A stretch of 52,468 nt of DNA from a virus, in the IMG/VR virus record IMGVR_UViG_3300033153_008490, positions 1 to 52,468 of that record, one strand, 5' to 3'. Shown here piece by piece: positions 3,377-47,146 of this stretch. The stretch's first letter is position 1. The number at the start of each line of letters is the position of its first letter. The notes beneath the pieces were generated by a model that did not search any database, was not told where the DNA came from, and worked only from the letters and a program-made list of their open reading frames with translations. A program made the translations under genes and the position numbers.

Positions 3377-3763
3377 TCACGCTCCTTTTCCGTGCTTACA
3401 ACGATCCGCATAATACCGCTGCCCCCACTCTCGGTAACATTGGGAACATACACATAGTGCTCTACATGCCACACCGTAGTAGGGGCTCTTACTATCATCC
3501 AAACAGCGAAACCACGCATAGGACCACGGCTCATATTTATTATCAACCCACTCCTCAACAACGGTCTTATAGCGTCTGAGCCAGCCTTTGCTGCGTTGCA
3601 CTGAAAATTTGTCATTGGCAACATAGCAGCCATCATCACTCATCGGTGGAAACGTCTCTTTTAGGGCCGTGAGATTGTTATGTACATCTAGGTGGTAATT
3701 ATAATCCTCAGTACTACCAAATAACATTCCACACTCTTCGCACCTATCTACTATGATTTTCAT
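3377..3763 (-). CDS. Zinc-finger protein of unknown function (128 aa)
   Basis: The ATG at 3763 is preceded by GGGAGA. The N-terminus has a classic C2H2 spacing: CEEC, 12 residues, then HLDVH. A second Cys/His cluster lies at the C-terminus (CVCSQC, then CKHG). The middle is rich in Trp and Tyr. C2H2 fingers are rare in bacteria but frequent in phage accessory genes, where they bind DNA, RNA or proteins. The stop is only 3 bp before the transglycosylase start, so they probably share a transcript. Confidence 0.6.
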   Translation of the reverse strand: MKIIVDRCEECGMLFGSTEDYNYHLDVHNNLTALKETFPPMSDDGCYVANDKFSVQRSKGWLRRYKTVVEEWVDNKYEPWSYAWFRCLDDSKSPYYGVACRALCVCSQCYREWGQRYYADRCKHGKGA

Positions 3764-6484: not shown

Positions 6485-6544
6485 GTTTCCTATCTCCTTT
6501 TTGCAACCCTAATTGCATGTGCCAGCCGTGCGACCGACTATCAA

Positions 6545-6600
6545 GCCCCGCGACGGAATCGAACCGCCGAGCCACAAGCCCACTGCCGGTCAGTGCGGGG
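6545..6600 (-). ncRNA. tRNA-like RNA lacking an anticodon arm (element a)
   Basis: Read on the minus strand, CCCCGC (6600-6595) pairs with GCGGGG as an acceptor stem. Next comes a hairpin CACTG-ACCGG-CAGTG whose loop carries GG, like a D loop. Then come about 12 unpaired bases, and a T arm at 6568-6552 with stem GGCGG/CCGTC and loop TTCGATT. The whole is 56 nt, about 18-20 nt short of a tRNA, and no anticodon stem-loop can be drawn. No CCA is encoded. It lies between two leftward protein genes and could be processed from their transcript. Confidence 0.55.
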
Positions 6601-6617
6601 ATACTGCGATTAGGAGT

Positions 6618-6785: not shown

Positions 6786-7143
6786 GGTCTGGGCTCCTAA
6801 TATGGGTTGTCAATCGTGCAACTGACTACACCTATACTATCGGATATAATACCGCCGACCATAACAAAATCTGCCCAATCAGCTATTATTTCTTAACTCT
6901 CGCTACCATCACACCTTATGACGATAAAACGAGAGAAATAAATATCACAATAACGCCAAACCGGGTCCGCTTAACCTAGTTTGCTAAACATAATCGCTAT
7001 CGTGCTACCCGTAAAGACAGCCTATGACTAGCCTTACCGCTTGACGCACACGAATTAGAAACGAGTAACACATCATCCACTGCTCATATTAAAAAAACTG
7101 ATACTACATGAACAACCGCTAATAATCGGCGTATATACACTAT
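6786..7143. promoter_or_regulatory. Divergent intergenic region between leftward and rightward genes
   Basis: About 360 bp with no supported gene. It separates the leftward gene at 6785 from terminase at 7144, so it should hold promoters in both directions. A weak rightward candidate is TTGACG at 7041-7046 with GTAACA about 18 bp later. AT-rich tracts occur at 6870-6960 and 7085-7140. I saw no iterons or long palindromes that would mark an origin. Confidence 0.4.
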
Positions 7144-46602: not shown

Positions 46603-46631
46603 AAAAACCGCCGAGCATCCATTCTCGACGG
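46603..46631 (-). terminator. Intrinsic terminator ending the tRNA-like RNA region
   Basis: On the minus strand CCGTCGAG pairs with CTCGGCGG around an 8-nt loop and is followed by TTTTT. One pair is G-U on this strand and would be C-A on the other, which fixes the direction. It lies before the holin-candidate gene, so that gene may need its own promoter or read-through. Confidence 0.75.
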
Positions 46632-46735
46632 AGGTACTACATTGCCAGTCTCGCAACCGACTGTCGGCATCCACCGCTTCGAGACGGTATTCTTCGACCC
46701 CGTCTAGGCCACCACTTCGCGGTCTTGTGACCACA

Positions 46736-46784
46736 GCCCGGAATAGGAATCGAACCTAGTTTTTTCGCTGCCAAGCGTCCGGGC
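46736..46784 (-). ncRNA. tRNA-like RNA lacking an anticodon arm (element b)
   Basis: GCCCGGA (46784-46778) pairs over 7 bp with TCCGGGC (46742-46736). Directly after the 5' strand is the hairpin CGCT-TGGC-AGCG, with GG in the loop as in a D loop. Then come six A residues, and a T arm with stem CTAGG/CCTAT and loop TTCGATT. The total is 49 nt, about 24 short of a tRNA, and the six A take the place of the anticodon arm. No CCA is encoded. The plan matches element a at 6545-6600. Confidence 0.6.
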
Positions 46785-46802: not shown

Positions 46803-46950
46803 GGCACGGCGGGTGATTGGTTTGCATCACTGAACAATCCCAGCCCTGTTTAGTCTGGAACTCGGGCATTTGAGCGTTTTGTGCCCCAACCACTGCAAGA
46901 CACAACTAGGCTTCCCTTGTTGTACTCGGCTACCACACCGCCGCCGTGCC
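46803..46950 (-). ncRNA. RNA domain closed by a 10-bp inverted repeat
   Basis: GGCACGGCGG (46950-46941) and CCGCCGTGCC (46812-46803) are perfect complements 128 nt apart, placed exactly between the two tRNA-like elements. Just inside the 5' arm, CGG-TGTGGTAG-CCG makes a D-arm-like hairpin with GG in the loop. Just inside the 3' arm, GATTG/CAATC encloses a 15-nt loop that begins TTCAGTG. The layout recalls an enlarged tRNA, but the loops are not canonical. Confidence 0.45.
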
Positions 46951-46953
46951 AAC

Positions 46954-47092
46954 GCCCCCGGCCAGATTTGAACTGGCGACCGGAAAGCTATTCCGGCGTC
47001 CAGCGACAAGAGAGCGCAACCTCTTTCTACTCCACCAAGCTATCACTTGGCTTTGCCGTCGCTGTGTGATAGACCATCTTCACCACGGGGGT
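46954..47092 (-). ncRNA. Class II tRNA-Leu-like element with enlarged anticodon arm (element c)
   Basis: Acceptor strands ACCCCCG (47092-47086) and CGGGGGC (46960-46954) pair except at the first position. The D arm is GTG...CAC with TGGT in the loop, as in tRNA-Leu. The variable arm has CCGGAA/TTCCGG and the T arm is GCCAG-TTCAAAT-CTGGC. The anticodon arm spans 47064-47001, that is 64 nt instead of 17: its stem CAGCG/CGCTG holds about 47 extra bases that can form small hairpins. No normal U33 and anticodon loop is evident. It may be an intron-bearing or decayed tRNA or a tRNA mimic. Confidence 0.62.
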
Positions 47093-47120: not shown

Positions 47121-47146
47121 GGGGGCCACCCCGAAGGATGACCCCC
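47121..47146 (-). terminator. Stable UUCG-capped hairpin after the recombination genes
   Basis: On the minus strand GGGGGTCATCC pairs over 11 bp with GGGTGGCCCCC around TTCG. Two pairs are G-U here and would be mismatched in plus-strand RNA. Only a weak ATTTG follows, so it may pause, protect or separate the mRNA from the RNA region rather than terminate fully. Confidence 0.6.

Follow-up and report, generated by a model that had tools for sequence, protein, structure and literature searches.

Anticodon-less tRNA-like elements in a podovirus-type genome and in other phages, with a possible role in RNA processing

Introduction

What use might a phage have for an element that keeps the acceptor stem and the T arm of a tRNA but has no anticodon arm? 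The question is raised by element C, a short stretch on the minus strand of a 52,468-nt virus record (IMG/VR record IMGVR_UViG_3300033153_008490, positions 1 to 52,468), the whole of which we call the window. An earlier note on this DNA had described element C as the second of two tRNA mimics of the same plan, with six A residues in place of the anticodon arm. The window carries podovirus-type genes for a GpA-type terminase, a portal protein (PF12236) and a major head protein, and a search at the DNA level for similar named phages found none. A TerL search of IMG/VR yielded one relative at 98% and some 80 others that are more distant. ARAGORN called zero tRNAs anywhere in the window, and Rfam scans matched no known RNA family. 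At element C itself, no tRNA-like call was made by ARAGORN or by Rfam, the latter used at gathering thresholds and additionally at E<=10 on that stretch.

Structure of element C

Read on the minus strand, element C consists of GCCCGGA, CGCTTGGCAGCG, six A residues, CTAGGTTCGATTCCTAT and TCCGGGC, followed by TGTGG (Table 1). All seven acceptor positions form Watson-Crick pairs (7/7). The hairpin CGCT-TGGC-AGCG has 4 bp and a 4-nt D loop with GG, and the six A residues come directly after it. The T arm, CTAGG TTCGATT CCTAT, has the full T-loop consensus and four of its five stem pairs (C.T at 49-65). Every part listed in the earlier note, from the seven perfect acceptor pairs and the four-pair GG hairpin to the six A residues and the T arm, is thus present. 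The further claim that the six A residues replace the anticodon arm exactly holds only in part: they are there and the anticodon arm is gone, but tRNA positions 8-9, position 26 and the variable loop are gone as well, and the D loop has shrunk to 4 nt. Because the anticodon arm is absent, element C cannot decode; it is also without CCA. The minimum free energy (MFE) fold returns the same shape at -17.8 kcal/mol (z -2.1), and a covariance model that was built including element C matches it at 34.9 bits (E 8.5e-6).

We estimated how often such a structure arises by chance with a strict descriptor that calls for an acceptor of at least 6/7 pairs, a T arm of 7/7 and a GG hairpin within 30 nt. It matches the window three times, at element C, at a second stretch that we call element 1, and at part of a third, element A. 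Among 400 first-order resamples the mean was 0.005 matches and there were never two or more, and the reversed window gave 0. The descriptor was tuned after elements C and 1 had been seen, so these figures are optimistic for those two, and the weight rests on later finds in other phages, which are independent of the tuning. With those finds, given below, we regard the acceptor/T-arm structure of the elements as well supported.

Related elements in the window and its relatives

Element 1 has the acceptor (T)CCCCGC..GCGGGG(C), the GG hairpin ACTG-ACCGG-CAGT and the T arm GGCGGTTCGATTCCGTC, and its short middle of 13 nt is able to form a 5-bp hairpin. It lies 16 nt past the stop of an open reading frame (ORF) and 60 nt ahead of the start of a 90-aa ORF. 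A third element, element 3, occurs in the nearest (98%) relative, within an inserted cassette made up of the element and a 121-aa ORF, and reads CCCTGC C CTTG-TGTTGG-CAAG CG GCCTG-TTCAAGT-CGGGC GCGGGG. The flanks of elements 1 and 3 are homologous. Like element C, both are without an anticodon arm with a 7-nt loop and U33. Between elements 1 and 3, three pairs have changed in both partners and two in a single partner, and none is broken except the first acceptor pair, which is unpaired in both (T.C and A.C). The compensatory changes that the earlier note had suggested looking for are therefore found. A three-way count of covariation that includes element C is partly circular, since the alignment was laid on the structure, and the comparison of element 1 with element 3 is the fair part of it. 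The earlier note had also held that finding full tRNAs in close relatives would reduce the elements to simple deletions; at element 1, which is identical in the 98% relative, none is seen. For the site of element C, a search for relatives by way of the Sak4 gene found none in IMG/VR and only one remote match among the TerL relatives examined.

The window differs from the near relative L002 by an element-plus-ORF unit flanked by ACTCCTAATC repeats. This arrangement is what would be expected if the elements were boundaries at the DNA level, that is, recombination hotspots for the swapping of small early genes in which RNA structure is incidental. Such a role is very unlikely in our estimation, as it is the pairing and not the sequence that is conserved, and homologous recombination needs an identity that the elements lack. 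Homologues of the 121-aa ORF in Marinobacter phage PS6 and Colwellia phage 9A have no such element alongside.

The TerL relatives were scanned over 880 kb for a strict acceptor and T arm, with no D-hairpin requirement. Seven matches were obtained where 0.4 were expected, three of them anticodon-less. They comprise elements 1 and 3, a minihelix in L036, two true tRNA-Met genes, an unusual tRNA in L094 and, in L063, a match probably due to chance. The L036 minihelix (51% TerL identity) is 38 nt long; a stop codon lies 8 nt before it and an ATG 3 nt after it. Taken by themselves, the covariance-model matches to G024 (E 0.006) and G050 (E 0.04) carry little weight, about 3.5 such matches being expected over 79 records; the former was retained on the strict scan and its context, and the latter was dropped. 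The L094 sequence (3496-3564, plus strand), from a distant phage, is a 69-nt tRNA-like stretch with a short anticodon-like hairpin, for which ARAGORN makes no call.

Elements in unrelated phages

Since pairing is not directly searchable, IMG/VR was scanned with fixed acceptors followed by a short gap to the T loop. About ten further elements were found in unrelated phages, among them a WhiB-coding actinophage, a probable Mu-like Bacteroidetes phage and mycobacteriophages. The GCCCGGA/TCCGGGC acceptor of element C gave two clear elements, one in the actinophage and one in the apparent Mu-like phage, of which the second has a canonical D arm and lacks an anticodon arm, plus two attP-like halves of tRNA-Leu. 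The GCCCCGC/GCGGGGC acceptor gave 11 matches, 8 of which have a perfect T stem and none of which is called by ARAGORN. A third, equally complex acceptor pattern had 0 matches in IMG/VR, indicating that chance matches are rare and that not all acceptors are used. Most of the elements examined lie 2-52 nt after a stop codon on the same strand; where a start was found, most precede the start of the following gene, and a clear ribosome-binding site often comes after the element.

What recurs in these phages is the acceptor and the T arm. The D-like hairpin is optional, and the linker, 2 to about 35 nt long, has no fixed sequence. The oligo-A linker, which the earlier note had presented as a shared feature, is accordingly not general, and we dropped it as a defining feature. 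The remainder of that note's interpretation has gained ground: both the description as a tRNA mimic without an anticodon arm and the argument that two elements of one plan speak against chance are strengthened by the third element, the elements in unrelated phages and the covariation. Chance inverted repeats do account for the descriptor matches L118, L124 and L126. As an explanation of the elements at large they are barely credible, given counts that far exceed shuffles and controls and given the conservation and covariation.

The two attP-like halves bear on another possible origin, namely that the elements are remnants of phage attachment sites (attP), in which a temperate phage carries the 3' half of a tRNA gene of its host. 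Partial tRNAs are known to arise from such fragments (PMC9897764), and L104 and L105 look like examples, each being the 3' half of tRNA-Leu(UAA) from the anticodon stem onward. Element C, in contrast, is not a 3' half that begins with the anticodon stem-loop. Like its kin, it retains the 5' acceptor strand and has no anticodon stem-loop, which is the reverse of an att core, and one genome can hold several elements. An attP origin is thus highly improbable.

In 257 Gb of bacterial and archaeal genomes, the GCCCGGA pattern matched nine stretches, all of them explained or doubtful: real tRNA-Leu genes, of which two contain masked N; copies in haloarchaea that lie near tRNA-Asp; and two matches that are unclear or due to chance. 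The short anticodon-less form therefore looks phage-enriched. In the haloarchaeal genomes L111, L112, L114 and L115, tRNA-Asp(GTC) is followed some hundreds of bases downstream by a conserved tRNA-like copy that contains a second GCCCGGA internally.

Conservation among mycobacteriophages

Two of the scan matches are the mycobacteriophages Rockstar and Phantastic. In Rockstar, a 42-nt element (45109-45068) lies 2 nt after the gp76 stop, in a gp76-gp75 gap of 80 nt (38 nt in BabyRay). The second mycobacteriophage element is near the right end of the genome and has homologous sequence in 50 records at varying identity, 42 of which match over at least 80% of the element. The 17 orthologues that were aligned come from Veracruzvirus and Fromanvirus; their middle is 17 to 25 nt long and sometimes a tetraloop hairpin, and their acceptor and T stem are 95.7% paired. 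Three pairs are compensated, with acceptor pair 7:66 and T-stem pairs changing on both sides in step. As the distinct core sequences number just four, this apparent covariation is supportive rather than overwhelming.

These data bear most directly on the possibility that the elements are decayed phage tRNA genes, that is, full tRNAs that have lost their middle and are drifting. Phages do carry tRNAs, such as the tRNA-Met of the relatives; the GCT-TGG-AGC of element C could be a shortened canonical D arm, its acceptor resembles a tRNA-Phe-type GCCCGGA/TCCGGGC, and L106 resembles a tRNA minus its anticodon arm. Drift, however, does not account for the compensatory changes between elements 1 and 3 and among the mycobacteriophage orthologues, for mycobacteriophage records that conserve the element while the length of its middle drifts, or for the recurrent placement just past stop codons. 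An intact tRNA is seen at none of these sites, although no relative was found that extends over the site of element C. Covariation and conservation thus disfavour decay, which we consider unlikely.

The non-coding unit around element C

Element C lies inside a non-coding stretch bounded by a strong hairpin and an intrinsic terminator. Because of these flanks, positions 47110-46608 of the minus strand may form a transcription unit of their own, of about 500 nt. A promoter scan for this unit gave nothing convincing, and it folds somewhat better than shuffles do (z -2.4). At its 5' end is element A, a class II tRNA cloverleaf with T8, A14, G15, G18G19, A21, C48 and G73, a long variable arm, the T arm GCCAGTTCAAATCTGGC and an A.C mismatch at 1-72. 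A 54-nt insertion replaces its anticodon loop. We also considered an intron-containing tRNA here, but the intron mode of ARAGORN gave many inconsistent calls and was not used. Between elements A and C lies domain B, which is not clearly tRNA-like and for which no relatives were found.

A possible role in RNA processing

We propose, tentatively and at slightly less than even confidence, that the elements are acceptor/T-arm minihelices that serve RNase P and other enzymes of tRNA maturation as signals for cleavage and stability. The analysis shows their structure, recurrence, intergenic position and covariation, and we infer that they would be transcribed in this phage, recognised and cut to its benefit. 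The acceptor stem and T arm of element C would stack into a 12-bp coaxial minihelix with a vestigial GG hairpin. Host RNase P would make the cut at the 5' end; the one at the 3' end would fall to RNase Z or 3'-trimming nucleases. Element C might in this way help to cut the putative 500-nt transcript into small stable species, and intergenic elements (1, 3 and those of other phages) might cut polycistronic mRNA just past a stop codon, giving each gene an mRNA end of its own. A position after stop codons fits the processing of polycistronic mRNA, and a position inside non-coding units of about 500 nt fits the release of small stable RNAs. In sequence and fold, element C has the acceptor stem stacked on a T stem-loop of a minimal RNase P substrate, with the 7-bp acceptor and TTCRANY T loop of a tRNA. 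The 3' RCCA that RNase P substrates favour without requiring it is absent, the trailers being TGTGG, CTTGATA, CTTATGG and others.

Several known systems resemble the elements in part. The tRNA-like domain of tmRNA has an acceptor and a T arm without an anticodon arm, as the elements do; they have no mRNA-like region or tag, and the tmRNA mode of ARAGORN and Rfam were negative. In mitochondrial tRNA punctuation, tRNA-shaped cut sites stand between the genes of a polycistronic transcript, although these are true decoding tRNAs and not the non-decoding minihelices of the phages. M3 RNA, the C4 antisense RNA of P1/P7 and T4 gene 32 mRNA, none of which is known to have a TTCRANY T arm on a 7-bp acceptor ahead of many different genes, are like the elements in being natural phage RNAs, and RNase P of the host cuts them (PMC11143913). 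RNase P also cleaves model substrates made of the acceptor stem, T stem and T loop alone (PMC11143913); these share the core of the elements, in which the anticodon arm is dispensable, but are laboratory constructs with a 3' CCA, whereas the elements are natural, CCA-less and situated between phage genes. YrlA is a bacterial and phage RNA with a tRNA-like domain, according to a passage of PMC7790460 that cites Chen 2014. It works with Ro60, and the window has no Rfam match to any Y RNA family. A Ro60/Y RNA reading was set aside, as no TROVE match was found in the record, which is possibly incomplete.

A parallel to the proposed unit is the right-end P-left non-coding RNA (ncRNA) of mycobacteriophages L5, D29 and StarStuff. 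Passages of Dedrick 2017 (PMC5712189) describe it as an RNA of about 500 nt that is the most abundant phage transcript and is processed to species of 100-400 nt; the RNA is toxic, and the left part of its region could not be deleted, which makes it partly essential. As in the window, this is a phage non-coding unit of some 500 nt. D29 has a tRNA-like structure near the end of it, made up of a T arm, a 6-bp acceptor and an enclosed middle of 75 nt, inside the region that those passages give as the source of the RNA, and mycobacteriophage relatives hold an anticodon-less element near the genome right end. There is no sequence similarity to the window, and the RNA is not described as tRNA-like in those passages (PMC5712189).

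Several observations weigh against the processing role. The next gene start is 191 nt from element C, so that element C is not directly intergenic. CCA is absent after it and after most of the others, though bacterial RNase P likes one. The D29 likeness is looser, given its long middle, its shorter acceptor and an MFE fold that loses the canonical T arm. The pattern searches demanded an intact acceptor and T arm, which makes the frequency of decayed versions invisible. Finally, the D-like hairpin, linker and trailer vary so widely that a single function for all elements is an assumption.

The main rival is a decoy that acts in trans: an excised mini-tRNA would occupy a host factor that recognises the tRNA body, such as an aminoacyl-tRNA synthetase, EF-Tu, the CCA enzyme, a tRNA-attacking defence nuclease or a toxin that modifies tRNA ends, and would thereby aid phage takeover or survival. 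The elements retain exactly the part that such enzymes bind and drop the one used for decoding, element A has a full class II body, including G73, without a normal anticodon loop, and the D29/L5 right-end RNA is, in the passages cited above (PMC5712189), extremely abundant and toxic. We nevertheless hold this to be somewhat unlikely. Single intercistronic copies with diverse acceptors suit a role in cis better than a stoichiometric sponge, a CCA tail is not encoded, and we found no link to defence or toxins.

Returning to the processing role, it is possible, though short of an even chance, that the elements belong to a widespread and unnamed class of phage RNA, comprising anticodon-less minihelices that lie between small genes and in abundant ncRNAs, including those of D29 and L5, and that would borrow host tRNA processing to define transcript ends. 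Our search of the open-access literature, which did not extend to subscription papers, found no description of an anticodon-less or truncated phage tRNA-like class or of phage tRNA punctuation. As tRNA finders and Rfam are blind to the elements, the annotation of published genomes may miss a level of RNA processing that recurs among phages. The proposal offers testable ideas on how phages subdivide polycistronic early mRNAs and on the nature of the most abundant, partly essential ncRNA of L5 and D29. The elements may also be of use as naturally occurring minimal substrates of RNase P, RNase Z and CCA enzymes, and as a source of candidate tRNA-body decoys.

Other features of the window

Table 1. 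Features of the window and of D29 discussed in the text
Feature	Position	Strand	Basis or remarks
Element C	46736..46784	minus	sequence and fold
Element C, acceptor	46784-46778 / 46742-46736	minus	
Element C, GG hairpin	46777-46766	minus	
Element C, six A	46765-46760	minus	
Element C, T arm	46759-46743	minus	
Element 1	6545..6601	minus	sequence, fold; identical in relative L002/L016
Element A	46953..47092	minus	sequence; MFE fold -60.4, z -3.8, 1/200 shuffles equally good
Domain B	46803..46950	minus	closed by perfect 10-bp helix GGCACGGCGG/CCGCCGTGCC; fold z -2.4
Intrinsic-terminator-like hairpin	46608..46631	minus	CCGTCGAG..CTCGGCGG TTTTT; ends non-coding unit
Strong hairpin	47121..47146	minus	GGGGGTCATCC TTCG GGGTGGCCCCC; directly after upstream gene, bounds unit
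Leader hairpin	46643..46662	minus	AGTCRGTYGCRMGRYTGRCA; downstream of element C
D29 tRNA-like structure	48084-47981 of L147 (D29 NC_001900)	minus	T arm and 6-bp acceptor enclosing 75-nt middle

The leader hairpin AGTCRGTYGCRMGRYTGRCA is repeated on the minus strand at 6520-6539, after element 1, and at 6808-6827, making three perfect matches where 0.18 were expected. The 6-bp stems of these leader hairpins covary and the YGCRMG loop is conserved; another 6-bp hairpin, at 515-498, has the loop TGCACG and a different stem. Near-identical leaders of the GGAGCCCARACCATG type, which we take to be reminiscent of mycobacteriophage start-associated sequences, precede many small minus-strand ORFs (with starts at, for example, 6784 and 6166). 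A pentapeptide-repeat ORF at 2522-2766 is built from 15-nt repeats that do not have the same copy number or order as in L002.
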